From: Prevotella micans DSM 21469 = JCM 16134
Lineage (GTDB): Bacteria; Bacteroidota; Bacteroidia; Bacteroidales; Bacteroidaceae
Assembly (NCBI RefSeq): GCF_000614105.1
Contig: NZ_BAKH01000004.1
Location: 1 to 64,000 of the forward strand
Length of the DNA stretch: 64,000 bases
Direction: 5' to 3'
Positions 32,136 to 49,588 of the stretch are shown in pieces. Positions within the stretch are counted from its first letter, which is position 1. Every line of letters starts with the position of its first letter. The notes below the pieces were generated by a model. The model was not told where the DNA came from and searched no databases. It saw only the letters and a program-made list of their open reading frames with translations. The position numbers and the translations under genes are program-made.

Positions 32136-32139
32136 GTTC

Positions 32140-32357
32140 TTCGCTCTAGAGCGAAAGCGTGAAAATCAAAAAAACGAGGCTTCTCTCCGGAGCGAAACTA
32201 TGAAAATTGAAAAAACAGGTCTTCGCTCTAGAGCGAAAGCTTGAAAATCAAAAAAGCGAGGCTTCCCCCCGGAGCGAAACGATGAAAATTGAAAAAACAG
32301 GTCTTCGCTCTGGAGCGAAAGCTTGAAAATCAAAAAAGCGAGGCTTCCCTCCGGAGC
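32140..32357. repeat. 41-bp tandem array, about 5.3 units with 82-bp higher order
   Basis: Units start at 32140, 32181, 32222, 32263, 32304 and 32345 (partial). Odd units begin ttcgctctagagcgaa, a perfect 16-bp palindrome in units 1 and 3 (one change in unit 5). Even units begin with a ccggag-centred variant. Each is followed by a tgaaaat, A-rich stretch, and the two types alternate. An open frame on the minus strand across it is a by-product of the repeat. The array sits directly between the peroxidase terminator and the island. Bases 32358-32657 hold no gene. Confidence 0.9.
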
Positions 32358-32657
32358 ATAGTCAGTCATTAAGAATTAAGGGAAACAGAGGGAAATGTAA
32401 GGAATGTAACTATTTGAAATATCATCATTTAGCATTTTCTTGCTGTTTTGAGGGTAAGCGAAAACGAGCATCAAACGGCATGAGTTCAGTTACCAAATTG
32501 TAACCCATCAAGGAAAAAGCAAAAAGGGGTTATGAATTGAATTTAAACAACTGTGTCATAGGTTTTTATTCCTCATCTTTCATTTTTCTGCATCGCTCAG
32601 GAATACTTGTTCGTATGTACTTTGCAAGCAAAGGAAATTTAGAAAAACGACAGAAAA

Positions 32658-33878
32658 ATGAAAGAAAACAAACTGAAAGTATCGTTCTTCGTTCAGGCGA
32701 AACGAACCGACAAGAGAGGACTTGTGCCTATCATCGGGCGCATCTCCGTAGGCAGAACCCATTCGGGCTTCTCCACTAAGTGCAAGACTCCACTTGCTCT
32801 TTGGGACAGCCGCAAGCAACGGCTCATCGGCAAGAGTGCAATGGCAGTGTCCGTCAATCAGAAACTCGGAGAATGCACCGCACTCATCCACGCACGCTTT
32901 CACGAACTCAGTGAAAGGGAAGAATCTTTTACCGCTACCGATGTGAGGGATGCCTATCAGGGTCAAATTCACCGCCAAGCCCTGCTCTTGGAGAGTTTCG
33001 GGGACTATCTCACACAGACAAAGGAGCGCATAGGCATCGACCGAGCCTTGAAGACATTCAAACTCCGTACCTACCAGCTTTCCCTGCTCCGTGAGTATGT
33101 ACAAAAGAAACACAAGGTAAGCGACATTCCCCTTTCGCAGTTGGACAAACCCTTTATCGAGGGCTTCGAGTATTTTCTTACCATCGACCGTAAACTGAAG
33201 CGGAGCAGCGTATCAAGTGCCTTGTCCACCTTGCAGACCATCGTCCGCATGGCGGTGAAGAAAGGTATGCTGGACTTCTATCCGTTCTTAGGCTACAGTT
33301 ACGAGCGACCAAAGGGCGAACCGAGAAGCATTACGCAGGAAGAACTTGAGCGCATCATCGACTTGGAGATTGAGTGGGAGAACTACCGTGTTGTCCGTGA
33401 TTTGTTCGTCTTCTCCTGCTTTTCTGGCTTGGCAATCTCCGATGTCCGTAATCTTCGGGAAGAGAACATCGTCTTGGAAGAGGGCGAACTCTGCATAAAA
33501 GGCAGACGGATGAAGACCAAGACTCCGTACCGTGTGCAAGTTCTTCCCCCTGCTTGGGCGATAATGGAGCGGTACAGAGGAAAGCGTGCAGGTTTTGTCT
33601 TTGACGTGCCGACTACCGACATTATTCTCAATGGCATGCACCACATACAGAGAAACATCGGTATGGAAGCTCCGCTGACTTTTCATATGGCAAGACACAC
33701 CTTTGCTTCGCTTATCACACTCTCGGCAGGTGTACCAATTGAAACGGTGAGCAGTATGCTCGGACACACCAACCTGAGAACGACACAAGTCTATGCTGCG
33801 GTTTCCTCCGAGAGAATCCATCGGGACATGCAGAAAGTGCAGCAGCGAATACAAGATACATTCACCTTAAAACTTTGA
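32658..33878 (+). CDS. Tyrosine recombinase (integrase) 1
   Basis: A 406-residue site-specific recombinase of the Bacteroidales mobile-element type: N-terminal arm-binding domain, SAM-like core-binding domain, then a catalytic domain. The box II motif is HMARHTFASL, followed by LGHTNLRTTQVYA with the nucleophilic tyrosine. At the usual first-arginine position the sequence is FSGLAISDVRNL, with alanine where XerD-type enzymes have arginine; the CTnDOT integrase also lacks this arginine. It starts within 300 bases of the 41-bp array and is followed 4 bases later by a second integrase. Confidence 0.93.
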   Translation: MKENKLKVSFFVQAKRTDKRGLVPIIGRISVGRTHSGFSTKCKTPLALWDSRKQRLIGKSAMAVSVNQKLGECTALIHARFHELSEREESFTATDVRDAYQGQIHRQALLLESFGDYLTQTKERIGIDRALKTFKLRTYQLSLLREYVQKKHKVSDIPLSQLDKPFIEGFEYFLTIDRKLKRSSVSSALSTLQTIVRMAVKKGMLDFYPFLGYSYERPKGEPRSITQEELERIIDLEIEWENYRVVRDLFVFSCFSGLAISDVRNLREENIVLEEGELCIKGRRMKTKTPYRVQVLPPAWAIMERYRGKRAGFVFDVPTTDIILNGMHHIQRNIGMEAPLTFHMARHTFASLITLSAGVPIETVSSMLGHTNLRTTQVYAAVSSERIHRDMQKVQQRIQDTFTLKL

Positions 33879-33882
33879 CATC

Positions 33883-35151
33883 ATGGCACGAAGTACATTC
33901 AAGACACTCTTTTATATCAACCGTTCCAAAGAGAAAAAGAACGGCAAATGCCCGATTATGGGACGCATCACCATAGACGGTGAGCAGGTGCAATACAGCA
34001 CGGGCAAGGAAATCGCTCCCGAACTTTGGGACAGTCGTAAAGGACGATGCAAAGGAACAGGCGAAGAGACAAAGGAAATCAACCGCTATTTGCAAACCAA
34101 AGAGGAACAAACCAAAGCGAAGTATCAAGAGTTGGTCTGGCAGCGTGGCTATATCACTGCCGAACTCCTCAAGCGTGAACTTATGGAAGAAGACAAGCCC
34201 AAAGGCTTTCTTCTGGAGGAAGCACGACTTTTCATAGAGGAAAAGCGTCCTTGCGTAGGAATAACGGTAGCCAAACCTACCTTTGCCAACTACATCTATG
34301 CTACACAGCTCATAGAGTCTTATCTGCGTGAACGTTTAGGACAGGAGGATATTCGCTACTCTCTGTTGGACTACGGTTTTATCGAGGGGATGGACTTCTA
34401 CCTCAAATCAGAGCGCAACCTATCCCTTGCCACCATTCATATAGCGGTCATCTTCCTGCGTAAACTCATCGGCATCGGTCAGCAGAAGAAATATATCCGC
34501 ATCGATCCGTTTGCGGACTACAAGGCAGAACTGCCACACCGCACAAGGCGTTATCTCACAACGGAAGAATTACAACGGGTATTGCAAACACCCATCATTG
34601 ACAGGCAGTTTGAGCGAGCTAGACAACTCTTCCTTTTCTGCACCTTTACAGGATTGGCTCGTGTGGATATGCAACGGCTCAAGCCGAAGCACATCATCCG
34701 CAATGCTGACGGCACGGAGGAAATCCGTATCAAAAGGCAGAAGACGGACGTGGAAGCCATTATCCCACTTCTTCCTATTGCCAAGCAAATCCTTTCGCTC
34801 TATATCAAGGACAAAGAAGCAGACGAATTGATATTCCCCAATCTCACAACAAGGAAAGCATCCTTTGCGTGTGTGAACATCGGTCAGATATGCCGGATAG
34901 AGAAAGGCTTGACCTTCCACATGGCTCGCCACACATTCTCGACCACGATTTGCCTCTCCAACGGCATCACGATGGAAACGCTCAGCAAGATGCTCGGGCA
35001 CAGCAATATCGGCACGACACAAATCTACGGAAAGATAACTGACCACAAGATACATGAGGATATGACTGCACTCACTGACAGAGAGCATTCTGTATTTGAA
35101 AGTTATTGCAAGTCGATAGCACGGCAGAGTGCTGTGAAGCAACAAGCTTAA
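33883..35151 (+). CDS. Tyrosine recombinase (integrase) 2
   Basis: A 422-residue relative of the preceding gene with the same domain order. Its catalytic motifs are HMARHTFSTT and LGHSNIGTTQIYG. FTGLARVDMQRL again has alanine after Gly-Leu in place of the first arginine. Tandem integrases are usual in Bacteroidales integrative elements and may act together or at different sites. It is 4 bases after integrase 1, hence coupled. Confidence 0.93.
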   Translation: MARSTFKTLFYINRSKEKKNGKCPIMGRITIDGEQVQYSTGKEIAPELWDSRKGRCKGTGEETKEINRYLQTKEEQTKAKYQELVWQRGYITAELLKRELMEEDKPKGFLLEEARLFIEEKRPCVGITVAKPTFANYIYATQLIESYLRERLGQEDIRYSLLDYGFIEGMDFYLKSERNLSLATIHIAVIFLRKLIGIGQQKKYIRIDPFADYKAELPHRTRRYLTTEELQRVLQTPIIDRQFERARQLFLFCTFTGLARVDMQRLKPKHIIRNADGTEEIRIKRQKTDVEAIIPLLPIAKQILSLYIKDKEADELIFPNLTTRKASFACVNIGQICRIEKGLTFHMARHTFSTTICLSNGITMETLSKMLGHSNIGTTQIYGKITDHKIHEDMTALTDREHSVFESYCKSIARQSAVKQQA

Positions 35152-37660: not shown

Positions 37661-38086
37661 ATGCCTATGAATAACGAAAAACCAAAGAAACGCATCTCTA
37701 AGAAGTGCGGCGATTTCCCTGACAAGTGGGAAGATTGGCACTTCCGTCTACCCGAAGAGAAAAACCAACTGAGAATTATTGACCTTTACAGGAAATCAGG
37801 CTGTCGCTCCAAATCTGAATTTGCACGGGCAAGGCTATTGGGAGAAAGCTTTAAGGTGATAACAGTGGATAAATCTGCAATAGAGTATTATCGTAAGCTC
37901 TCATCGCTTACAGATGAGGTACACAAGATTGGGGTAAACTACAATCAGTTGGTGCGCATCCTGTACACCACAGAGCGACTGCAGATTTTCGAATCCATTC
38001 TAAAAGAGATATGCTGCCTAACAAAAGAACTCCACGATCTGCAAAAGCAAGCCGTGGAGTTGACAAATGAATTTAGATGGCGATAA
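37661..38086 (+). CDS. MobC-like mobilisation accessory protein
   Basis: A 141-residue relaxosome accessory protein. Typical motifs are WHFRLPEEKNQ, then SGCRSKSEFARARLLGESF, then KLSSLTDEVHKIGVNYNQLV. The family binds oriT and assists a relaxase encoded just downstream. Here the relaxase is missing: after a 58-base gap the sequence runs into the convergent defence block. Mobilisation would need a relaxase in trans. Confidence 0.8.
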   Translation: MPMNNEKPKKRISKKCGDFPDKWEDWHFRLPEEKNQLRIIDLYRKSGCRSKSEFARARLLGESFKVITVDKSAIEYYRKLSSLTDEVHKIGVNYNQLVRILYTTERLQIFESILKEICCLTKELHDLQKQAVELTNEFRWR

Positions 38087-38144: not shown

Positions 38145-40184
38145 CTATTTTTCTGCTTTATTTTGCCACTCATCAGCAAGATTTTCCCAGTTTATTTCTC
38201 TCGTTTTTTTACCAGTCCAAACATCCCAGTAATCAGGATCATTAGACTGTGGGCGTTGTTCATCACGCAATGTTCGCATTTTTACCATAATAGGCAACTC
38301 TGATGCCCAGCCTAACAACACTGCATATTGCGAGGGAAGCGATGGCATTTCACGGAGAATCCCCCTCATATTGTCTGGCAATAAACGATGAATTAGTTCT
38401 TGATCTCGGTCATTAGATATACGATGCAATAAGAAAGAATTGCATTGAGACAAGACAGTAGGAGATAATTCTGATGGTCTTTGTGATGACAAAACAAGCC
38501 CTAGTCCGAATTTTCGTCCCTCTCGGGCAATCTTTTCAAAAATTTTACAACATTGAATAGTTGGTCCTGTATTTTCTGTATCATCATTGTATCGCTTGAT
38601 AAAATAGTGAGCTTCTTCCATAACCAAAACGGTCGGTAGACATTGCTTATTCAGTTTAAGGTAACGTTGTTGTGTTTCAAATATCATACGAGCTACAACT
38701 GCCGTAACGATACTCGTTACATCAGATGGAAGTAAAGACAAGTCAATTATTGTCAGCGATTCTTTATTATTAGCTCCTATATAGTTATCTAGCCAATCAC
38801 TTAACTTGAGAGAATCATTATCAATGACTTTCTTGACGCGTACATCTGTCAGTAATGTTTTGATACGAGGCATTAGAGTCACGATATAATCTGTTGTTTT
38901 GAGTATTTCTGCATTAGCCTCTATGGAACGTACAAAATTATCACCAGTGAATGGGATAGGACTATCTTCATCTGTAGGCAAAAACTCTTCCTCCCGACCA
39001 CCAGATTTAATATAGACATCCTTTAATCTGGCTATTAAATCATCTATTTCCTTTTTCGTGTAATCATAATGAGGAAATTTTCCTGACCTAGCATTTGTTA
39101 GTGTTTCAACTAGTTCTTGAAATGCTTGAATCGCCGTATTTAGTTCTTCTGAGTATTCTTGTGCACCTGTAATTCCACTTGCCCATTTTTCGACGGATTG
39201 ATGAAAATTCTTTGGGAACGGAAATTTTCCCCAAGGGTTACCAGATGCTTTGTGGACCTCAATAGCATCAATAACAGTGCGAACATAGTTTGCCAGCTCT
39301 CGCTCTTGTGTCTGCCCTTCAAAAGCGTTTCCACTTCTTACCGACTTTAGTGCATGAACGATTGTCGTCCTGTGTGTTTTCGGAGAGGCTTTGGTGAATC
39401 CACACCACTCGTCAGTATTCCAAAACCACAGTGGAACTTCAAGTTGTTTTTCAGCCTCCCCTTCTACATTTACCGTGTAGATATTTGCATTAGGCTTATC
39501 CGCAAAGGCTTTGCTATACTCCCCATTCGGATCTAATACAATAAAGCGACTATTTACATCCCCTTCCATATCAACAAGTTGCTCTCTGGCACCTTCAATA
39601 GACCATCGTATCAAACCTGCTACAGAACAAGATTTTCCACTACCAGTATTTCCAAGCACAGCAAGATGACGTCCAAACAGACGATCAGGGTCAATCATCA
39701 CCTTGGCATTACCGACTAACGGGCTGTTGCCAATATACACTCTTCGGTTATCTCCTGATTCGACAATAGAACGCAACTGTTCATCTGTGGGCAATATGAC
39801 TATATCACCAACAGAAGGAAAGGACTCTAAGCCACGCTTAAATTTATAACCACCTTCGGAAGAACGAAGGGTACCCACAGGTTGAAGTTCCATTTTTCTT
39901 AGAGGAAAAGGCAAATCAATCAGCCCAAAGTCTTGAAAGCCTCTTCGTTTAGGATAAGGAGAACGTTGGATTGTAATCCATGACACTTGTCCGACTACAA
40001 AGCCAAGGTCAATAGGAATCATAACATAGCCATTGATGCGTGGAAAACTTCGAGGTGTACCTGTATTCAAAGCTACACTCTCTGGAGACTCTACATCAAG
40101 TTGTATTTCTATTCTATCTGGAGATATATATTCTACAGTTCCTATACGCAGTGAAGCAAGGTACTCAATGGGCGTTGTAGACAT
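38145..40184 (-). CDS. herA: HerA-like ATPase of SIR2-HerA defence system
   Basis: A 679-residue HerA/FtsK-superfamily ATPase. The order is an N-terminal HAS-barrel-like beta region (about 10-80), Walker A GNTGSGKS (178-185), a long helical insertion, Walker B VLVMEEAH (519-526), and the sensor region VLSSQRPSEL (564-573), followed by SFLLHRISNDRD with the arginine finger. HerA proteins form hexamers and, paired with SIR2 nucleases or NADases, make a known antiphage complex. It is 16 bases downstream of the SIR2 gene and last in the block, converging on mobC. Confidence 0.92.
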   Translation of the reverse strand: MSTTPIEYLASLRIGTVEYISPDRIEIQLDVESPESVALNTGTPRSFPRINGYVMIPIDLGFVVGQVSWITIQRSPYPKRRGFQDFGLIDLPFPLRKMELQPVGTLRSSEGGYKFKRGLESFPSVGDIVILPTDEQLRSIVESGDNRRVYIGNSPLVGNAKVMIDPDRLFGRHLAVLGNTGSGKSCSVAGLIRWSIEGAREQLVDMEGDVNSRFIVLDPNGEYSKAFADKPNANIYTVNVEGEAEKQLEVPLWFWNTDEWCGFTKASPKTHRTTIVHALKSVRSGNAFEGQTQERELANYVRTVIDAIEVHKASGNPWGKFPFPKNFHQSVEKWASGITGAQEYSEELNTAIQAFQELVETLTNARSGKFPHYDYTKKEIDDLIARLKDVYIKSGGREEEFLPTDEDSPIPFTGDNFVRSIEANAEILKTTDYIVTLMPRIKTLLTDVRVKKVIDNDSLKLSDWLDNYIGANNKESLTIIDLSLLPSDVTSIVTAVVARMIFETQQRYLKLNKQCLPTVLVMEEAHYFIKRYNDDTENTGPTIQCCKIFEKIAREGRKFGLGLVLSSQRPSELSPTVLSQCNSFLLHRISNDRDQELIHRLLPDNMRGILREMPSLPSQYAVLLGWASELPIMVKMRTLRDEQRPQSNDPDYWDVWTGKKTREINWENLADEWQNKAEK

Positions 40185-40200
40185 AAATATGTAATTAGGA

Positions 40201-41628
40201 TTATGAATTAGTGTTTGTTGTGTAAGCAGATACCTCTGTTATAGGGGAGTCAGAATGAACCGTTGTGGTAGATTTGTCTATATTTGAGACTGCTCCCATA
40301 CGGTGTTGTAGTAGTTCTGCCATTCTAATTGTAGCTCTGTCAATGGCTGATTTCGGTAGGTAGTCATTGGCAAGATTCGTAATATCCCCCAAATTATTCC
40401 CTATCAATACTGACATCTGAGCTTTATGTGCTGACTCCAAATAAAACTTTAAGATGCGACCTATTGGGTCATTGTATGAAATAATGACCAGATGCGTTGA
40501 AGGTATTGCGAGCATATCATGAATGACTCTATTTATATGCTCGTCCGCAAAGCCATAGCCATAAGTAACCAAAGTACTATTAGGTCTACAAATAGAAGCC
40601 GCAAAATCTCGGAACAATTCCACGTATGGATATTCGGATGTTTCTCGATCTTTAGCGGAGTTGGGATAAATCATTAACTTCAATGCATCTGCACCATGTA
40701 ATCCAGGAGCCTGTAGATAAGGATCAATGCTATTTGCTCCAAATGGAAGCCCTATACGGCGTATCTCTTCACCATTCTGCACCCAATCAACAGAGCCATG
40801 AAGCTTTGTTAGACGTGCTACGCCTTCCAAATAACGAGGCTCTCCCCTAATGCCTGGAGGATTGTAATGAATATCTAAATTGAGCCTTGAAGAGCGAAAA
40901 ATAGGCATCATAGTCCCTACGAAACGATCCATGAGATGAATCCCAGCCAATTCTGCTCCAATTTCTATAAGTCGGTCGTAATTTGTTGTGAAGATGTTAA
41001 GCCGTTCTTTGTTTCCTGTGCGACTTGCAAAACTTAGAAGAAAATTAACTAATACCCGATAGGCGTTCTCTCGCTTTTCTTCCACAGCAACTGCAATACC
41101 TTTCTCTGACTTTAGTATGGATATTGCAAATTCTGAAACAATAGAGTTCAATTCCTGTTCTAATGTCTGCGCTTTGTCTGTTTCTCCTAAGATCTTTAAG
41201 CCTCTGAGCAAATCATTTGCTGTTCTTATTTGGTCCTCAATATTACCATTCTCACGACCACTAGCTTTCGCTGATTCCTGAGCTGCAGTTTCTATCTCAT
41301 TTTTGTAGTTAGTAAATGTAGCCCCACCCATTGTAGTACCAGAGCCTGCTCCTGCTAAGATACTGATGGCATTTGTTATCCCAGACCCACACAACAGCGA
41401 CAAGTGTTCTGATTGGAAAAGAGAAGTTAGCCAAGGTTCTATACGTGAACGGAAAATGTTGTTGTTTGCAACAGAATCCTCAGTATCGGGCAACCAACCG
41501 CAATCTTTCGTATTAAGCACTTTTCCATCTTTATCAAAACTTATCAATTCGCGATCATCTCTTGTTTTAATAACATTGCCACCATTTTTCAGAATCTCTT
41601 GTAGAGTCTCTATTTGTAACTCTTCCAT
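40201..41628 (-). CDS. SIR2-domain protein of SIR2-HerA defence system
   Basis: A 475-residue protein with a SIR2-like NAD-binding domain. Motifs are LLCGSGITNA (78-87), IFTTNYDRLIE (212-222), KLHGSVDW (275-282) and TYGYGFADEHINRV (355-368). Residues 1-60 are an unassigned N-terminal extension, and the last 30 are a Ser/Thr-rich tail. SIR2 proteins in defence systems typically degrade NAD on phage sensing and stop growth. Pairing with HerA identifies the two-gene SIR2-HerA type. The catalytic state cannot be confirmed by eye. There are 84 bases to hsdR upstream. Confidence 0.92.
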   Translation of the reverse strand: MEELQIETLQEILKNGGNVIKTRDDRELISFDKDGKVLNTKDCGWLPDTEDSVANNNIFRSRIEPWLTSLFQSEHLSLLCGSGITNAISILAGAGSGTTMGGATFTNYKNEIETAAQESAKASGRENGNIEDQIRTANDLLRGLKILGETDKAQTLEQELNSIVSEFAISILKSEKGIAVAVEEKRENAYRVLVNFLLSFASRTGNKERLNIFTTNYDRLIEIGAELAGIHLMDRFVGTMMPIFRSSRLNLDIHYNPPGIRGEPRYLEGVARLTKLHGSVDWVQNGEEIRRIGLPFGANSIDPYLQAPGLHGADALKLMIYPNSAKDRETSEYPYVELFRDFAASICRPNSTLVTYGYGFADEHINRVIHDMLAIPSTHLVIISYNDPIGRILKFYLESAHKAQMSVLIGNNLGDITNLANDYLPKSAIDRATIRMAELLQHRMGAVSNIDKSTTTVHSDSPITEVSAYTTNTNS

Positions 41629-41712
41629 ATGAACAAAATATTATGTGTTTATCGAACTAATTTATATTACCTTGATTGCAAGGGGGCTTTATTGTATATC
41701 CCAAAATCTCAT

Positions 41713-44700
41713 TTACTCCCCTCCATAGCTCTTGAAGTGCTCCACTTGCTCCATCACTTGATTGAAGACCTCAGTGTTGTATTGAGGAGGATAGCCATTG
41801 GCACGCAGGCAGAAGAAGATCTTTTGATTGAGGTCGGCACGTATCTTGGCATTGTTGAGCCAGTCGGTGAAGGAGGATTGTACGTCTATCAGTTCCTTAA
41901 TCTTCTTAGCCAAGGTCTTGCACTTGTCGTTAATGATGACTGAGCCTTCTTGTCTATCCTCACCATACTCAAAGTTATACTTATCTCTGAGATGCATCAA
42001 GATGTCGTAGAAGGCTTTTTCCTCAAAGGTCAGTCCCAGTCCGCGGAAACTTTCCTTGTCTTTCCCTAGCTTATCGAGCAAGTCAAAGGCCTGTTTCGTC
42101 GCTTCGCCAATAATGGCACTAACGGCTTCGCTCTGTGTGGCTGTAGCCTCTGCATCCGAGAGCGCCGCCCTGCGGCTGTGATACTCGTCTAGCGTCTTCC
42201 GAAGTAGCTCCTCATATTTCTCTGCCATCACCTTGTTCGTATTCTTATAGGCTTGGATACTTTTGCGAAGCATCTTAACGAGCAGTTCGAGCCGTGTAGC
42301 AGGGAGCTTGATGCTATTGAGTTGCTCCGTAAACTCAGGACTGAAAATCCGTTCCTCTACGTCTGTATCAAGGATACTCACCACGGCATTGCAGCGCAAA
42401 GCCTCTGCGACCATACGTTCCACAGCACGATTCATACTAGCCACATCGTGTTTCTCGCCCGATGTCTTGCGCACATACGACGCCACTGCCATGTAGCATT
42501 GCGAGAGGGAGAGTTCTTCGTGACTCAGCACATTCGAGGGCTGACAAATGTCGTAAGCCGCTCGGAGACGTTTCACATGAGCCAGGAAGAAGGTCTTGGC
42601 ATCCACCTTCTTGGGTAATCCCTTTTCGCTCTCGATATGTAGCATCTCATTCATTGTGATGATATGTTCAGCCGCAGCCGAAAGGCATTCCAAGCGCACC
42701 AATGGTTTCACATCCTTGCTGGTGAAGGGCGTGAGATCAAAGCCAGCAAACACTTGACGGATTAGCTCCAACTCAATGCGCAAGGCTTCCAAGGACTGTG
42801 CCACATCATCATCACTCGGACCGAAGTCGTCACCTCCAAACCGCCGCATCGCCTCCATCATATTCTTGTGTATGCCGATATAGTCGATGACATAGCCAAA
42901 GTCTTTGCCGGGATAGTTGCGATTCACGCGACTGATGGTCTGCACCAAGGTCTGCTTCTGTAGGGGTTTATCGTTGTAGAGATACGTCAGGCAGGGCACA
43001 TCGAAGCCCGTAATCCACATATCCACCACGATGACGAGGCGGAAGTTGCTCTGCTCGGCCTTAAAGGCATCGTCAAGTTGCTTCGTCCGCTTCTTGTCTC
43101 CCAGATACTGCCACATATCCGCAGGGTCGTTGGCACTGCGGGTGGCGACCATCGCAATGGTGGGCATAGGGCTTAGCCTGCGTAGCTCTTCTGGGGGAAG
43201 CTTACTATCATCGGGCGACTTGCGTTCCTTAAACCATTCAGGGCGGAGTTTCTCGAATTTCTTGAGGAGTCTATAGGCAATCTGCCGTTTGCTACACACG
43301 ATCATTGCCTTCTGCACCACATCGGCTTTGTTGTCGCAAGCCTTGGTGTAGTGTTCTATGATGTCGCTGGCCAATCGTTCCAGTCGCTCGTCATCACCCA
43401 GAATCACTTCCATCGCACTCATCGCTTTCTTGCTCTTGGCAACATCTTCGTCGGTGGCTCCTTCATCGGCACACTGCTGATAGTAGGTATCTATCTCTTT
43501 GACCTTATTACTATCAAGTGTTACATTAGCGATGCGAGGGATATACTTAATGTCTCTCGTGATGCCATCTGCCACAGCCTGCTGCATGGTGTAGCTATCC
43601 ACAATCTCACCAAAGACCTGAATAGTCTCATCAATGGGCGTACCTGTAAAGCCTACAAAGGTTGCGTTGGGGAAGGCGGTGCGCAGCAGTTCAGCATAAG
43701 GCTTCGTGACGAACGCTCCCAATTGTTCAGCCTCCTTGCCTTTCTCGACCTTGTCTTTCACCTTGAGTTGGCTGTTCAAGCGCACTTGCGTGCGGTGCGC
43801 TTCGTCCGAGAAGCACACGATGTTGCGTCGCTCGTTGAGCAGTCCTGTATCCTCACAGAACTTCTGGATGGTACAGATGAAGAAGCCTCCTGAGGGACGC
43901 AGGCTCATCTCGGCTTTTAGTTCGGCTCTACTCTCTATGATCTTTGCCGTACCCAGCGAGAGGAACTCTTCCGAACGGAGAAAGAGCTTACCTGCCTGTG
44001 TTTGCAGGTCTTCTCGGTCTACAATCATCACAATCGTAGGCGAACCCAAGTCCGAACAGCGCAACGACAACTGCCGAGCCAAGAACATCATGGTGTAGGT
44101 CTTCCCACAGCCTGTAGCTCCGAAGTACGTTCCCCCCTTGCGTTCTCCCCTTTTGTAAGCTTCGACAACGTGGTCGCGCAGCATGCGTGTAGCGAAGAAT
44201 TGTGGGTAGCGACACACCACCTCTTCTTCCCGCTCACTTCTGGCGTCAGGGAAGTAGACATAGTCACGCAAGATTTCCAAGAAACGCTCCGTCTCATACA
44301 CGCCTCCCACGATGGTACGCACTTGGTCTATGCCACTCTGTGCCGCAGGGTCTTCGTTGCGCACCTTCTTCCACGCATAATAGTGTTCATAAGGCGTATA
44401 GGTGGTGCCGAGCTTAGTATTGTTCTTCGTGGCATCGCTGATGCACGATAGGGGGCAATAGTGCAGCAGATGAGGAATGTCTCTTCTGTAGCGTGTGTGT
44501 ATTTGTTCGTAGGCATCGGCAATGGTGGCGTGTTCGTCCGTAGGGTTCTTGAGTTCGAAGATGCAGAGGGGCACGCCATTGACAAAGAGCAACACGTCGG
44601 GGATGCGAATGTCGCTCCCTTGTCCGTAGCCCACTTCAAACTGATTGACCACTCGGAAGATGTTGTTCTGCTGTGGCTCGTCGAAGTCTATATAATTAAT

Positions 44701-45000
44701 GTCGAAGGTTTTTCCATCGCTATGGCGCACATAGCGATAGCCGTTGCAGAGCAATTGATATGTGGCGCGCAAGAGGGCAAAGTGCGTCTGCCCACTCATG
44801 TGCCGCAAGTGGTTCACGATCTCATCAATATCTTCCTGCTCAAGCTCGCTATGCTGCCTGCCGAGGAACGCTCTCAGATCTTCCTCTATCAGCACTTCAC
44901 GGTTGTTGCGATGCAGCGTGCTACCGTGCGTATACTCCCAACCTGCATCGGTAAGTAGGTTGATGAGTGCTTCTTCATATTCGCTTTCGTAGAACTTCAT
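41713..45000 (-). CDS. hsdR: Type I restriction enzyme R subunit
   Basis: About 1095 residues. The N-terminal nuclease core has IRIPDVLLFVNGVPLCIFEL followed by Lys (PD-ExK-type Asp and Glu-Leu-Lys near residue 150). The translocase shows Walker A GATGCGKT (about 294-301), Walker B-type FSDEAHRTQ, FTGTPI, and the late motif MWITGFDVPCLTYLYND. A helical C-terminus contacts the methylase. The ATG at 45000 (MKFYESEYEEAL) is preferred to one 9 codons up. It is complete, with no visible break. It lies between a YhcG-type nuclease and SIR2. Confidence 0.95.
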   Translation of the reverse strand: MKFYESEYEEALINLLTDAGWEYTHGSTLHRNNREVLIEEDLRAFLGRQHSELEQEDIDEIVNHLRHMSGQTHFALLRATYQLLCNGYRYVRHSDGKTFDINYIDFDEPQQNNIFRVVNQFEVGYGQGSDIRIPDVLLFVNGVPLCIFELKNPTDEHATIADAYEQIHTRYRRDIPHLLHYCPLSCISDATKNNTKLGTTYTPYEHYYAWKKVRNEDPAAQSGIDQVRTIVGGVYETERFLEILRDYVYFPDARSEREEEVVCRYPQFFATRMLRDHVVEAYKRGERKGGTYFGATGCGKTYTMMFLARQLSLRCSDLGSPTIVMIVDREDLQTQAGKLFLRSEEFLSLGTAKIIESRAELKAEMSLRPSGGFFICTIQKFCEDTGLLNERRNIVCFSDEAHRTQVRLNSQLKVKDKVEKGKEAEQLGAFVTKPYAELLRTAFPNATFVGFTGTPIDETIQVFGEIVDSYTMQQAVADGITRDIKYIPRIANVTLDSNKVKEIDTYYQQCADEGATDEDVAKSKKAMSAMEVILGDDERLERLASDIIEHYTKACDNKADVVQKAMIVCSKRQIAYRLLKKFEKLRPEWFKERKSPDDSKLPPEELRRLSPMPTIAMVATRSANDPADMWQYLGDKKRTKQLDDAFKAEQSNFRLVIVVDMWITGFDVPCLTYLYNDKPLQKQTLVQTISRVNRNYPGKDFGYVIDYIGIHKNMMEAMRRFGGDDFGPSDDDVAQSLEALRIELELIRQVFAGFDLTPFTSKDVKPLVRLECLSAAAEHIITMNEMLHIESEKGLPKKVDAKTFFLAHVKRLRAAYDICQPSNVLSHEELSLSQCYMAVASYVRKTSGEKHDVASMNRAVERMVAEALRCNAVVSILDTDVEERIFSPEFTEQLNSIKLPATRLELLVKMLRKSIQAYKNTNKVMAEKYEELLRKTLDEYHSRRAALSDAEATATQSEAVSAIIGEATKQAFDLLDKLGKDKESFRGLGLTFEEKAFYDILMHLRDKYNFEYGEDRQEGSVIINDKCKTLAKKIKELIDVQSSFTDWLNNAKIRADLNQKIFFCLRANGYPPQYNTEVFNQVMEQVEHFKSYGGE

Positions 45001-45078
45001 CTTAGCTGTCTTTATCTTTTTATACACATCAATAAATAGAGATGACCTCGGAAATATACAACAAGCTTATCTTTACGC

Positions 45079-46128
45079 TTAGTCTTTAGCTTGATTGAGT
45101 AAGTGGTCTAATTGTTTCTGAAGTTCTTCTCTATTGGGTAGATAGAGTTGGTAGCGTGCAGCAAAGAGATGATTGTCTATACCTTCAAGAGCATACTCCA
45201 TCAATAGTTCATCCTTGTGCGCTCCTAATACAATGCCAATTGGAGGATTGTCATCTGCCTGACAAACCTCGTTTTTGAAATAGTTTAGATAGAGGTTCAT
45301 CTGCCCTATGTCCCCATGCTTTATCTCTGCACGTTTTAAGTCTATCAGCACATAGCATTTCAAGATGGTATGATAGAACACCAAGTCAACTTTGAAACGT
45401 CTTGTTCCAATGGGAATTACATACTGACGCCCCATAAAAGCAAAGCCTTTTCCTAATTCAAGCAGAAACTGTTCCATGTTGGTTTTCAGAGCCTTCTCTA
45501 GATCAGTTTCTTTATAACGCTTTTGCTGTGAGATACCTGTAAACTCTAGCACATAGGGATCTCGGAGAATATCTGTGGGCGAAGACATCTGCTGTCCTTT
45601 TTCTGCAAGAGCAAGTACACTTTCTTTGTCTTTACTGATAGCAAGCCTCTGAAAAAGAGCAGAGCTTATTTGGCGTTTCAGCTCTCGTACACTCCAATTT
45701 TCAGCTATACTCGTCTTCAGATAGAACTGCATTTCTAGCTCATCAGAACACTTGAGTAGCTCCAAATAATGGCTCCAACTTAATTTGTGCGACACTGTCT
45801 CACAAATTGGGAAGGCAAGATAAAACTTGCGCATATAGTGAAGAGCCGAGCGACTAAATCCTTTACCTCTTAATCGAGTTAGATCTTTAGATAAATTGGG
45901 CAATAAGCGTTCACCATACTTTGCCTTTGCATTACCCTTTTGTTCAAACTCAACGATATATCTACCTGTCTCCCAATTGGCATTGAGCAGTTCTATATTA
46001 ACAGCAATGGCAGCCTTTGCTCTTGCACCATTCCAAGTGTCTGAAATATGTGCGACTAGTTGCACATATTCAGAATCATTCGTTTGCAATCCATTTACTG
46101 ATTGAACTAAGCTATTATTCTCTTTCAT
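45079..46128 (-). CDS. YhcG/DUF1016 PD-(D/E)XK nuclease-domain protein
   Basis: A 349-residue protein of the YhcG family. The N-terminal DUF1016 region has NWETGRYIVEFEQ, GERLLPNLSKDL and GFSRSALHYMRKFY. The C-terminal nuclease fold has FKVDLVFYH (Asp near 248) and YVLIDLKRAEI (Asp-Leu-Lys near 263-265). Such genes are common inside type I restriction loci of Bacteroidota. Their role is uncertain, possibly repair or an accessory defence nuclease. It is 13 bases downstream of hsdS. Confidence 0.9.
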   Translation of the reverse strand: MKENNSLVQSVNGLQTNDSEYVQLVAHISDTWNGARAKAAIAVNIELLNANWETGRYIVEFEQKGNAKAKYGERLLPNLSKDLTRLRGKGFSRSALHYMRKFYLAFPICETVSHKLSWSHYLELLKCSDELEMQFYLKTSIAENWSVRELKRQISSALFQRLAISKDKESVLALAEKGQQMSSPTDILRDPYVLEFTGISQQKRYKETDLEKALKTNMEQFLLELGKGFAFMGRQYVIPIGTRRFKVDLVFYHTILKCYVLIDLKRAEIKHGDIGQMNLYLNYFKNEVCQADDNPPIGIVLGAHKDELLMEYALEGIDNHLFAARYQLYLPNREELQKQLDHLLNQAKD

Positions 46129-46141
46129 ACATCTTCATATT

Positions 46142-46750
46142 TCATCCCTTGATCGACTTTTGCACCAGTGCGGGGCAGAGCGTGCGCAGCTCCGCACGTG
46201 CCGCCTCCGCTATGCGCTTCGCCTCCTCCATACCATGATACAGGTTCACAATAGACTGCTGCACCGAAAGCGGAGGGAGGGGGATGCGCGATTCACACAA
46301 TGCTACCCAGGAAAAAACTTCTGTGGAACTACCCCAAGAACGAAAGCAGGCGTTTCTATCCCACTCATCTCTGCAGAAAAGCATAAATAAGTATTCAGGT
46401 ATCAGGAGATTATCTGACACCTTGAAAGCTGTATTATTCCAACTGGTGATGAAGGGATTTAGAGTAGAATTGAATCCTAATCCTATTTTCTTTCCATGTG
46501 TTCGCGGATTGTAGATAAATTCATTGGGCTTGACAACTTTGAATTTGGACAAATCGCTATTGACAAGATCTGCTTTAGTGGGAATGACTTCCTTTGTAAT
46601 TGTCATTCCTCGCACATCCTCTATGCCATACTCACCTGCATAGTTCCTTTCATCCACCTCCTCAATATACTCGCCTAGCGTCACTTCAGGATACTTGCGT
46701 TTGCAGTCAATGATGAAAGCTTGGCAGGCTTCGGAGAGCGGTGCCATCAT
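46142..46750 (-). CDS. hsdS: Type I specificity subunit, C-terminal half
   Basis: 202 residues carrying the second target-recognition domain. It starts with a helical connector (MMAPLSEACQAFIIDCKRKY), then LGEYIEEVDERNYAG (25-39), a variable DNA-recognition region, and RIPLPPLSVQQSIVNLYHGM leading to a final helix. It overlaps the N-terminal half as ATGA. One extra base at about 46750 would fuse the two into a normal HsdS of about 370 residues. So this is either a split subunit or one more single-base deletion. Confidence 0.88.
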   Translation of the reverse strand: MMAPLSEACQAFIIDCKRKYPEVTLGEYIEEVDERNYAGEYGIEDVRGMTITKEVIPTKADLVNSDLSKFKVVKPNEFIYNPRTHGKKIGLGFNSTLNPFITSWNNTAFKVSDNLLIPEYLFMLFCRDEWDRNACFRSWGSSTEVFSWVALCESRIPLPPLSVQQSIVNLYHGMEEAKRIAEAARAELRTLCPALVQKSIKG

Positions 46751-47259
46751 GCTTCGTTCGTCTCTGCCAATTGCTTTAAGCGCTCATACGTGGCTACCAA
46801 CTCGCGCTGTACCGAGAGAGGGGGGAGGGGAATCTTTATCTCGGTGAATCTGTCCCAATCAAGATTTGAGCGAATACTACCATCACTCAAGAACCAGCCT
46901 AATCTATCCATTTCAAGACGATTGAATTGCAGGAACAGATACTGAGGTAAGACTTCCGAAGCGTCTTTTATCTTGAATGTCGTATATGCAGGCGATACGA
47001 GTATTGTTTCATCATTGCCTTGCAACGCTATTCTAATACAAATGTCTCGCCCAGTCTGCATACCACTAAACACAAAGGTGTCTAGCTTTACCAACTTGTA
47101 CTTCCTATTATCAAGGTTGTTCGTATCCGTCACAGTGGGCATGAACTTCTTATCCTTATTCACACCACAAAAAGGATAATCCGTCCCCGCATAGTTCCTT
47201 TCGTCCACCTCCTCGATATAGTCCCCGAGGCGCACCCACTTTGTTTTACTCACATTCAT
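46747..47259 (-). CDS. hsdS: Type I specificity subunit, N-terminal half
   Basis: 170 residues with the first target-recognition domain: LGDYIEEVDERNYAG (11-25), a variable region, then KIPLPPLSVQRELVATYERL and the start of the central helix, cut at AETNEA. The opening motif and the closing proline motif recur in the other half, giving the circular half-repeat layout of HsdS. It overlaps hsdM by 14 bases. A single half-subunit could still function as a homodimer in principle. Confidence 0.88.
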   Translation of the reverse strand: MNVSKTKWVRLGDYIEEVDERNYAGTDYPFCGVNKDKKFMPTVTDTNNLDNRKYKLVKLDTFVFSGMQTGRDICIRIALQGNDETILVSPAYTTFKIKDASEVLPQYLFLQFNRLEMDRLGWFLSDGSIRSNLDWDRFTEIKIPLPPLSVQRELVATYERLKQLAETNEA

Positions 47260-48844
47260 AGCCTAATTGTTTTAATGCCTTGCGCAGGGTTTGAGCATTG
47301 GTTTCTTGGCGTTGGAGGAGCTGCGCCACGGTAGAGGCGGTGTGGCGCAAGGTCGCGTCGTAGTCGATCTCGGTGTCTCTGTCCTTAAACTCGATGTAGC
47401 GACTAGGTACGAGGGAGAAATTGTTTTTGCGCAGTTCATCGATGCCTACAGAGCGGAAGAGTTCGGGCTCGGCATAGCTCGTGCCGTCCGTACCTTCGGC
47501 TTGCCAAGTGTGATAGATGCTCACGGCATGGGCTATTTGCTCGTGGGAGAAGAGAGTTTTCTTCTTCTGCTCTCCCTTGACAGCATGCTCCGTCCATTGG
47601 CGCAAGTCCATAAAGAGGATCTCGCCCGTGCGCTTGCGCAGCTTGCGCCCGTGCCAGCGTCCTCCACCCTTGTTCTGGTTGAGGATCCACAGTGTGACGG
47701 ATATATCGGTGGTGTAGAACAATTCACGAGGCAACACCACGATGGCCTCCACCTTATCGGCCTCGATAAGCTTTTGCCGAATAGTCACCGTGTCGCCATC
47801 GCCCAAGGCGCCATTGGCCAGGAGGAAGCCAGCCACACCCCGTTGAGGTTTCAGTTTGGAGAGAATGTGCAATATCCACGCATAGTTGGCATTGCCCTCG
47901 GGTGGCAAGCCGTAGTCTGCCCAACGTGCATCGTTACTCAGCTCGGGACTGTACCACTTCTTGAGGTTGAAGGGCGGATTCGCCATGATATAGTCGCAGG
48001 TCAAGCCCCGGTGCATATCCTTCGTGAAGGTCGAAGCGTTGCGCTCACCCAGGTGGTGGGAGATGCCCCGCATAGCCAGGTTCATCTTCGCCAGTCGGTA
48101 GGTGGCTGGATCCTGCTCCTGCCCGTAGACATTGACCTGCATGATGTCGCCTTGCTTCTCCTCGACATACTTAGCACACTGCACAAACATCCCACCCGAG
48201 CCACAGCAAGGATCGTAGAGAGTGCCATCGAAAGGCTCAATGAAGGCAGCGATCAGCTCCACAATGTCATGAGGCGTGTAGAACTCTCCCTCCTCCTTAG
48301 TGGCATTCACGGCAAAACTCTTGAGGAAGTATTCGTAAACACGCCCAATGAGGTCGCGTTCCGTGCCGAAGGTCTTATGCGAAATCTTGCTCACCTCGTC
48401 CACCACTTGTTTCACTACGTTGGGCGAAAGGTTAATGCTCGAGAAAAGCCCAAGGCGCACACAGCTCCTGAAAGTATCTCCACTTTCCTCCAGTGCTTGC
48501 AAGGCATCATCCAGTGCGGCATTGAGCTTCGTCCCTGGTTGTTCGACTAGCTTATCCCATCGAGCAGCTTCCGGCACAAAGGGCGCACCGCTATACATGC
48601 TTGGTTCATTAACGAAAGCTTGTATTTCCTCCTCATCGGTCATCCCATTATCGAGTGCCATCTTGTACAACCGCTGCTGCTCATCCACGAACTTCTCGCC
48701 GATGAAGCGCAGGAAGACGAGCGTGAGCAGGAGGTCACGCTTATCGTTGAGTGAAGCATTACTGCGCAAATACTCTCGGCAGTTAAATAGTATGGTTTCA
48801 AGGCTGGGCATACCAGCATCTTCTTTCTTCTTTTTCTTAGCCAT
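47246..48844 (-). CDS. hsdM: Type I DNA methyltransferase M subunit
   Basis: A 532-residue N6-adenine methyltransferase. It has an N-terminal helical HsdM_N domain (ETILFNCREYLRSNASLNDK), SAM-binding motif I DPCCGSGGMF (211-220), and catalytic NPPF (289-292) in DYIMANPPFNLKKW. It modifies the site recognised by HsdS and is needed for restriction. It starts 13 bases after the small HTH regulator and overlaps hsdS. Confidence 0.96.
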   Translation of the reverse strand: MAKKKKKEDAGMPSLETILFNCREYLRSNASLNDKRDLLLTLVFLRFIGEKFVDEQQRLYKMALDNGMTDEEEIQAFVNEPSMYSGAPFVPEAARWDKLVEQPGTKLNAALDDALQALEESGDTFRSCVRLGLFSSINLSPNVVKQVVDEVSKISHKTFGTERDLIGRVYEYFLKSFAVNATKEEGEFYTPHDIVELIAAFIEPFDGTLYDPCCGSGGMFVQCAKYVEEKQGDIMQVNVYGQEQDPATYRLAKMNLAMRGISHHLGERNASTFTKDMHRGLTCDYIMANPPFNLKKWYSPELSNDARWADYGLPPEGNANYAWILHILSKLKPQRGVAGFLLANGALGDGDTVTIRQKLIEADKVEAIVVLPRELFYTTDISVTLWILNQNKGGGRWHGRKLRKRTGEILFMDLRQWTEHAVKGEQKKKTLFSHEQIAHAVSIYHTWQAEGTDGTSYAEPELFRSVGIDELRKNNFSLVPSRYIEFKDRDTEIDYDATLRHTASTVAQLLQRQETNAQTLRKALKQLGYECE

Positions 48845-48857
48845 GGTGGTAGGTAGC

Positions 48858-49067
48858 TTATATCAACTTATCTTTTGTGGGGGTGATAAGTATTCTCACC
48901 TCTATATCTAATACTTTGGCAATCTCTACAAGATTTTCCAAAGAAGGCTGTACCTTATTGGAACACCAACGGGAAACAGTATTCTCAGCCTTCCCCAGTT
49001 CTTGGGCAAGCCATTTACTTGTTAGTTGTTTCTCTGCTAATACAGCCTTAATCCTATTCATTGCCAT
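48858..49067 (-). CDS. XRE-type HTH regulator of the defence block
   Basis: A 69-residue protein that is almost only a helix-turn-helix: LTSKWLAQELGKAENTVSRW, then VQPSLENLVEIAKVLDIEV. Small XRE proteins ahead of hsdM act as controllers of restriction-modification timing. It is first in the minus-strand block and is the only gene with a clear promoter there, so it may control the whole run down to HerA. Confidence 0.9.
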   Translation of the reverse strand: MAMNRIKAVLAEKQLTSKWLAQELGKAENTVSRWCSNKVQPSLENLVEIAKVLDIEVRILITPTKDKLI

Positions 49068-49109: not shown

Positions 49110-49117
49110 CAAAGGTA
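49110..49117 (-). promoter_or_regulatory. -7 element of defence block
   Basis: Minus-strand TACCTTTG matches TAnnTTTG, 43 bases before the HTH gene ATG. Confidence 0.6.
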
Positions 49118-49588
49118 CAGCATTAAGAGCATTATAGCGAAAGATTTAGAGAATTATTTATCCTAGACTATTATTTTCTTTGATTTCAGGTGTTTTTCAT
49201 CGAATAATCAGTATCTTTGCAACATAGAACAACGTGTTCTTTGAAGCAATGCAGAATAAAGAAAGGAAAAGAAACTCGCTCGTTTCCAACTCGTAACCCT
49301 TTTGTCCTTTATCCTTTCTTAGGTTATTGATTATCTGAAAGATATAAACTTATTGAATCTTTTGCGGGCGAAGCTTTGAAAATTATCCCGACAACATTTT
49401 TATATCATCAGGGAGCACTATCCGAGAAGAAGTTGTTCATCCGAGGCTTCGGATGAGTTATCAGAATTCCTATATAACCGCTCGAGGGCGAGATGATATG
49501 GGCTTTTAACTACCTTTGCCACGGTTTCTCGACAGGCTGGGAGGAAGGCTTTTCCAACGATTGGAGAAATAATGAAAATGAAACTACG
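49118..49588. other. Gene-free region at the island's right edge
   Basis: About 470 bases without a credible gene. It contains TATCTTTG at 49212-49219 (possible murF promoter, also inside gtatctttgc) and a hairpin catccga/tcggatg near 49439. The island probably ends in this stretch. Confidence 0.45.
49212..49219 (+). promoter_or_regulatory. -7-like element, possible murF-alr promoter or att core
   Basis: TATCTTTG matches TAnnTTTG but lies 370 bases before the murF-alr ATG. The ten bases 49211-49220 also fit GTAnnTTTGC, the published CTnDOT integration core. Either reading is tentative. Confidence 0.4.

Follow-up and report, generated by a model that had tools for sequence, protein, structure and literature searches.

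Does a run of defence genes read from one strand work as a single ordered machine, or is it an operon into which separable systems have been fitted? The question is raised by a block on the minus strand at positions 38145-49067 of a 64,000-nucleotide stretch of Prevotella micans DSM 21469 (NZ_BAKH01000004.1, positions 1 to 64,000; this whole stretch is called the window hereafter), which belongs to contig C104 of a 92% complete genome of 2.42 Mb. The block combines the genes of a type I restriction-modification (RM) system with a gene for a YhcG/DUF1016 nuclease and a SIR2-HerA pair, and an earlier interpretation, here called the sequence-only reading, had suggested that it gives ordered responses, with suicide as the last layer. 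The answer that we favour, with a probability of about 0.76, is that the type I RM operon would be a chassis with exchangeable cargo slots, occupied here by YhcG and by SIR2-HerA of the Nezha type.

Composition and spacing of the block

The block and the candidate signal ahead of it comprise the following features, listed from the XRE end to herA.

49110..49117, minus strand: candidate -7 promoter box TACCTTTG, directly upstream of the XRE start (pattern search)
48858..49067, minus strand: XRE/Cro-type helix-turn-helix protein, 69 aa, first gene (Pfam HTH_3, E 3.2e-10)
47246..48844, minus strand: HsdM, type I methyltransferase subunit, 532 aa (N6_Mtase, E 3.3e-88; HsdM_N; motifs)
46747..47259, minus strand: first half of HsdS, 170 aa (Methylase_S, E 2.6e-6; PADLOC Specificity_I, positions 1-172 of 384)
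46142..46750, minus strand: second half of HsdS, 202 aa (PADLOC Specificity_I, positions 174-376, E 1.9e-66)
45079..46128, minus strand: YhcG/DUF1016 PD-(D/E)XK nuclease, 349 aa, in the hsdS-hsdR slot (YhcG_C, E 6.2e-58; DUF1016_N, E 1.7e-43)
41713..45027, minus strand: HsdR, type I restriction subunit, 1104 aa (T1RH-like_C, SWI2_SNF2, HSDR_N; motifs)
40201..41628, minus strand: predicted SIR2-family NADase of the SIR2-HerA kind, 475 aa, behind hsdR (PADLOC SIR2, E 3.1e-164)
38145..40184, minus strand: HerA-type ATPase, partner of SIR2, 679 aa (PADLOC HerA, E 7.4e-246; 90% identity to HerA of Porphyromonas circumdentaria)

The eight co-directional frames of the open reading frame list were all recovered where the sequence-only reading had placed them, with their families confirmed. 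From XRE to herA, they are separated by a gap of 13 bases, overlaps of 14 and 4 bases, and gaps of 13, 51, 84 and 16 bases, the 84-base gap being the largest. At a cut-off of E 0.001, Pfam assigns a family to seven of the eight, the exception being the second part of HsdS.

Pattern searches found intact motifs in HsdM (DPCCGSGG and NPPF), HsdR (Walker A, DEAH and PD...ELK), YhcG (DLVFY...DLK) and HerA (Walker A and Walker B), and SIR2 has TTNYD (N216) and LHGS (H277), all of which we take to have their usual catalytic meaning. With adjacent HsdM, HsdS and HsdR bearing these motifs, the locus qualifies as type I RM, its HsdS being in two frames. YhcG has both the DUF1016_N and the YhcG domain, and its sequence matched no solved structure at E 0.001. 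The adjacent SIR2 and HerA genes, with the N and H of the NADase (conserved in 46/46 aligned SIR2 rows) and the HerA Walker motifs, form a pair of the SIR2-HerA (Nezha) kind. Moreover, SIR2 matches the solved SIR2 chain 8j4u_A (E 2.9e-23), an entry that also contains a HerA-like chain; a search of viral contigs for close SIR2 relatives gave no pattern match.

The guanine-cytosine content changes in steps at the module borders, being 50-52% in the hsdM and hsdR regions (51-52% in hsdR), about 39.5% in yhcG and 38-42% in SIR2 and herA, so that the block appears as a mosaic.

The small XRE protein is the probable regulator of the block. In the HsdR clade described below, 10 of 23 relatives have a similar frame ahead of hsdM, and some of the 23 are truncated at that end. 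The RM genes and SIR2-HerA would probably be transcribed from one leader promoter near XRE. Pattern searches bear only weakly on the single visible promoter of the sequence-only reading: the box TACCTTTG, whose consensus we take to be that of Bacteroidales, lies before XRE, and pattern searches found no such box in the intergenic gaps of the block. On the other side, Bacteroidales-like -7 boxes occur near the chance number across the window (55 versus 45.3 +/- 6.8), with further ones on the minus strand within hsdR (41970, 342 bases ahead of SIR2) and within herA. No terminator-like site was called on the minus strand within the block, and a sigma-70 promoter scan, with a model not built for Bacteroidales, stayed at chance level.

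In the mechanism that we propose, the XRE-hsdM-hsdS-hsdR operon would be carried by an apparently mobilizable element (recombinases and mobC, the relaxase now missing), its hsdS-hsdR slot taking the YhcG nuclease gene and the slot past the hsdR stop taking SIR2-HerA. The RM enzyme would methylate self DNA and cut unmodified DNA, and SIR2-HerA, by analogy with studied relatives, would act as an independent NADase complex triggered by infection. Most likely, restriction and NAD depletion would be distinct layers that share one leader and are exchanged in the form of cassettes.

Cargo exchange at related hsd operons

Relatives of HsdR were collected from genomes of the order (30/393 including the own genome, 31 places; all 30 non-own places fetched) and of the family (34/399 including the own genome, 36 places; 17 of the 35 non-own places fetched, being those with at least 50% identity). 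The HsdR clade considered here comprises 23 relatives with an identity of about 47% or more.

The most precise exchange is seen between L033 and L074, loci from genomes of different families. From a point upstream of XRE through to the hsdR stop, their DNA is about 95% identical, the two hsdS specificity regions excepted. At the hsdR stop the two part: SIR2-HerA follows in L033 (Pfam, PADLOC), and in L074 a frame of 1422 aa that contains a calcineurin-like phosphoesterase domain. Beyond these, the loci are again similar, at 84%, in a converging Mob_Pre relaxase frame. Conversely, the SIR2-HerA pair of L084 occupies the hsdS-hsdR interval, 5 and 2 bases from its neighbours, and is 87% DNA-identical to the pair of L085, the similarity stopping at the pair edges; no hsd gene was recognized in the fetched 20 kb of L085. 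Apart from the cargo, both target-recognition regions of L033 and L074 differ within 95% flanks, a natural specificity swap on the same chassis.

Counting the window, 10 of 24 loci have a same-strand gene of at least 250 aa within 250 bases after hsdR; among those that have none, several are truncated by contig or fetch ends. SIR2-HerA holds this place in the window, L002 and L033, that is, in two of the 23 clade relatives besides the window. Elsewhere, Pfam identifies a SIR2_2 domain in a 954-aa protein (L079), AAA_13 followed by an AlbA-like protein (L065), GmrSD (L069), AbiH (L071), the phosphoesterase domain of L074 and AAA_23 (L076), and a PHP domain that scores below the Pfam cut-off (L078). 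The slot between hsdS and hsdR is just as varied, with Fic (L031), an AAA_15 ATPase with OLD-like TOPRIM (L034), RhuM (L070), AAA_13 (L069), a frame of similar size in L071, AAA_14 and AAA_21 proteins (L072) and a 262-aa frame to which no family name was given (L076). YhcG occupies this slot in the window only; 10 clade relatives carry a YhcG relative in the hsdM-hsdS interval instead, and two more (L072, L080) have one that is cut or broken. Since such diverse genes occur in the same slots, SIR2-HerA is one cargo among many.

Two further arrangements were noted among these loci. At 8379-16264 of L079, the gene of the 954-aa SIR2_2 protein comes after hsdR and is accompanied by one for an AlbA/Schlafen-like protein, with MobC-like and recombinase-like frames beyond them. 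A DUF2971-like protein of 254-258 aa (Pfam on the L033 copy) lies between XRE and hsdM in L033, L034 and L074-L078, being intact in L033, L034, L074, L076 and L078 and short or fragmented in L075 and L077.

The SIR2 of the window has relatives at 11 loci in the genome collection, two close ones at 77-79% identity and nine that do not exceed 33%. The locus of Porphyromonas circumdentaria reads HipA-HsdM-HsdS-HsdR-SIR2-HerA, the same order as in the window but for yhcG, with a relaxase gene and a MobC/NikA-like gene past HerA on the opposite strand and a recombinase-like frame further on. Identity between the two loci is 75% for HsdR, 79% for SIR2 and 90% for HerA. In the HsdR tree they are sisters (SH-aLRT 98, quick method), both with SIR2-HerA behind hsdR, and since these sister HsdRs have diverged to 75%, the RM-SIR2-HerA unit would be at least that old; we infer that it has moved between host families. 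A separate acquisition of SIR2-HerA by the two loci was considered and rejected, as the HsdRs are sisters. In Xylanibacter rarus, SIR2-HerA stands near an integrase-like frame with no hsd gene in the fetched stretch, and the HsdR relative of this genome (42%) is located on a different contig.

When the window is aligned with P. circumdentaria as DNA, the match is interrupted at 41079-41102 inside SIR2, where P. circumdentaria has extra residues, and mean identity is 72% on the RM side of the break versus 84% on the side of the SIR2 end and HerA. Recombination within the gene is one possible cause.

Linkage of SIR2-HerA to hsd genes and its explanations

SIR2 matches were found in 12/393 genomes of the order and 3/60 relatives, the own genome being included in both, and HerA matches in 33/355 genomes of the phylum (own included) at 41 places. 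From the latter, 35 regions were counted, 18 with SIR2 and 17 without, after omission of the own locus, G200 (= L083), the unfetched G1086:C105, L097, which consists of two broken pieces of one genome, and L123, in which no frame was called as HerA. Beyond the window, hsd genes stand in a same-strand chain with SIR2-HerA at 7 of 31 Bacteroidota loci (L084, L089, L092, L101, L105, L111 and L113; L092 and L105 reach contig ends, so that their operons are partial). This count excludes L033 and P. circumdentaria, which came from other searches; together with the seven, they show that RM beside SIR2-HerA is no isolated case. The genes of the window do form an operon-like block, as the sequence-only reading had it. 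Wherever hsd genes occur in a fetched stretch they form such a chain (7/7), none being loosely nearby, and the fetched stretches of the other 24 loci contain no recognized hsd gene. In L084, L089, L111 and L113 the pair lies between hsdS and hsdR, with a spacing of few bases or overlaps.

On the SIR2 tree, linkage to hsd changes seven times (bootstrap range 7-8), gains and losses being alike possible; 7 of the 46 rows were omitted (six long branches and one of a close pair), and the tree of all 46 gives the same seven changes. A single clade of all RM-linked SIR2s was rejected (p-AU 0.0002). The HsdRs of the hsd-linked SIR2-HerA loci, where available, fall into five groups with about 23-31% mutual identity where alignable. 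Moreover, L084 and L113 share a common RM family (HsdR 65%) and have SIR2s from distant branches. The swaps, the linkage changes and the five HsdR groups together argue for an exchangeable module array and not for an obligate layered machine. A fixed, ordered multi-layer system is not supported, as the modules occur unlinked in X. rarus and at 24/31 loci, and only 2/23 HsdR-clade relatives have SIR2-HerA behind hsdR; unlinked occurrence in related genomes was among the observations that the sequence-only reading had itself named as refuting it.

Three points weigh against the chassis reading. First, the split of HsdS means that the RM system may be altered or inactive. Second, co-transcription is argued from spacing, and the 84-base gap before SIR2 could hide a promoter missed by pattern scans. 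Third, the control for defence-gene clustering is weak. SIR2-less HerA loci are hsd-linked at 0/17 versus 7/31 (Fisher p 0.041), or versus 4/18 within the phylum sample alone (p 0.10), but only 2 of these 17 are known defence pairs, so that the comparison cannot separate enrichment from a general clustering of defence genes. The partners of 10 of the 17 were scanned and comprise DUF4297 (two, L109 and L116), SpoIIE-type proteins (five), a histidine kinase (one), DUF6901 (one) and one with no family; a wider search for HerA-DUF4297 returned only L109 and L116 in 349 genomes. Because of this control, the probability of the chassis reading was lowered from 0.80 to 0.76, a guarding role of SIR2-HerA was made somewhat less probable and plain clustering somewhat more so. 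As a separate observation, a HerA-like ATPase gene lies directly behind the gene of a SpoIIE-type protein in five Bacteroidota genomes (L114, L119, L121, L126 and L128).

Plain clustering in a defence island, where the systems would be adjacent through shared mobility with no functional or regulatory tie, is the alternative that fares best, and we regard it as tenable though clearly the less probable account. It agrees with the recombinase and mobC genes that adjoin the block, with the occurrence of the modules apart and with the variation of base composition by module, and the inadequate defence-gene control leaves it room. However, it does not readily explain why the pair sits between hsdS and hsdR with few-base spacing or overlaps at the four loci named above, nor why hsd genes, where present, always form a same-strand chain with it.

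The block could also be a decayed island that is being lost, with only some modules working, which we consider improbable. Its HsdS is in two frames, back to back on the same PADLOC model, whereas HsdS is a single frame of 367-396 aa in 19/23 clade relatives (of the remainder, L066 and L073 are truncated at contig ends, L079 has HsdS apparently fused to HsdM, and in L080 no HsdS was called), and MobC has no adjoining relaxase. Against this, the remaining frames match their relatives in length and their motifs are intact, the two HsdS halves share a 4-base ATGA overlap of a kind that could allow coupled translation of two half-subunits, and an assembly error is possible. The conserved starts of the halves are 86% identical over 44 nt (46635-46678 versus 47186-47229), and this repeat is a possible site of specificity-region exchange.

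Finally, in a more precise form of the sequence-only reading, the linked RM system could restrain or trigger SIR2-HerA, so that killing would follow when restriction fails, like PrrC for EcoprrI, the suggested triggers being phage antirestriction proteins that inhibit HsdR or DNA ends from restriction. This would agree with the embedding of the pair in hsd operons, where linkage changes seven times on the SIR2 tree and the HsdRs belong to five diverged groups, with the near-zero spacing or overlaps in L084, L089, L111 and L113 and with the PrrC precedent (PMC12707154, PMC3506569). However, in Vibrio cholerae SIR2-herA protects with the remaining island deleted (PMC11559045), the pair lacks hsd linkage at most Bacteroidota loci, and type I hsd genes were absent by gene name from nine annotated plasmid stretches outside Bacteroidota (picked from 469 matching records, with incomplete gene tables; a tenth stretch bears no annotation); one of the nine, from Xanthomonas, has methyltransferase and helicase genes upstream, behind an IS element. 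That diverged SIR2-HerA lineages occur in one RM family (L084, L113) speaks against a specific protein contact, and on balance such guarding seems unlikely. The same doubt extends to the joint scenario in which abortive effectors are swapped with precision in the hsdS-hsdR slot and past the hsdR stop of a Bacteroidota type I RM chassis and SIR2-HerA has been recruited repeatedly as a guard of HsdR, where a phage would block or evade HsdR, HerA would sense persisting or cut phage DNA and SIR2 would deplete NAD.

The embedding of second systems in type I RM is already known (PrrC, TgvAB, and DarTG2 under RptR), and Makarova et al. 2012 remark that Sir2 is among the toxin-like domains present within Type I and III RM systems, proposing as a general hypothesis suicide or dormancy upon immunity failure (PMC3506569). 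The last-layer suicide of the sequence-only reading would be an instance of this published hypothesis. The RptR-RMS-DarTG2-M48 island of E. coli resembles the block in having a small regulator first, a type I RM system and an embedded toxic module, and the RptR paper terms the hsdS-hsdR site a potential recombination hotspot (PMC12255303). The window shares this layout, with a small DNA-binding protein upstream and same-strand modules inside and behind hsd, but its regulator is of the XRE family, which that of the island is not, and YhcG stands at the place of DarTG2, between hsdS and hsdR, with SIR2-HerA behind hsdR. TgvAB of V. cholerae VPI-2 is likewise a defence module, of two genes, embedded in a type I RM cluster, although it is a type IV restriction system and not an NADase; it protects without the RM cluster, though less than the whole cluster for several phages (PMC11411939). 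In PrrC/EcoprrI and Campylobacter rlo, a translation-blocking gene linked to hsdMSR, with regulation by RM reported there, is the model for last-layer logic (PMC3506569, PMC2610378, PMC12707154); its product is an anticodon nuclease, unlike the SIR2-HerA of the window. The nearest likeness of the pair itself, with SIR2, HerA and the conserved N and H, is to Nezha (8j4u by sequence), which the island figure of PMC11559045 places outside a type I RM operon, whereas the pair of the window is appended to one. In the open-licence literature, no title or opening abstract found describes SIR2-HerA inside type I RM operons, nor was a study found whose title places YhcG/DUF1016 within RM operons, so that, as far as these searches reach, the new part is SIR2-HerA as a recurrent cargo in swappable slots.

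These cases turn a brief remark in the literature on Sir2 linked to type I RM into countable examples. They are natural comparisons, between near-identical RM loci with and without SIR2-HerA and between related SIR2-HerA pairs inside and outside RM operons, with which one can test whether guarding or mere co-travel describes the role of an NADase located behind a restriction enzyme.

Flanking genes and further observations

Three genes on the opposite strand adjoin the block on its herA side.

37661..38086, plus strand: MobC-like mobilization gene, converging on herA (MobC_2, E 1.2e-32)
33883..35151, plus strand: tyrosine recombinase, second of a tandem pair (Phage_integrase, E 3.1e-16)
32658..33878, plus strand: tyrosine recombinase, first of the tandem pair (Phage_integrase, E 6.8e-17)

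No relaxase gene lies beside MobC; a search of the own genome for Relaxase (PF03432) gave two matches over the cut-off, both on other contigs, and none for a MobA_MobL relaxase. As to an empty insertion site, the left-flank genes of the window were found in 0/9 same-genus genomes (17.5 kb upstream of murF-alr compared). Candidate terminal repeats at 32577-32671 and 49171-49265, on opposite strands, score 38 against a maximum of 31 in 300 shuffles, which was judged insufficient for calling ends. Directly left of the recombinase genes, at 32138-32383, lies a tandem array of 41-nt units in two alternating versions. Elsewhere in the own genome, on contig C68, a second, diverged type I locus (L059) has HsdM and HsdR separated by a recombinase-like frame and a stop within its HsdR match, and it may be a specificity-switching system.

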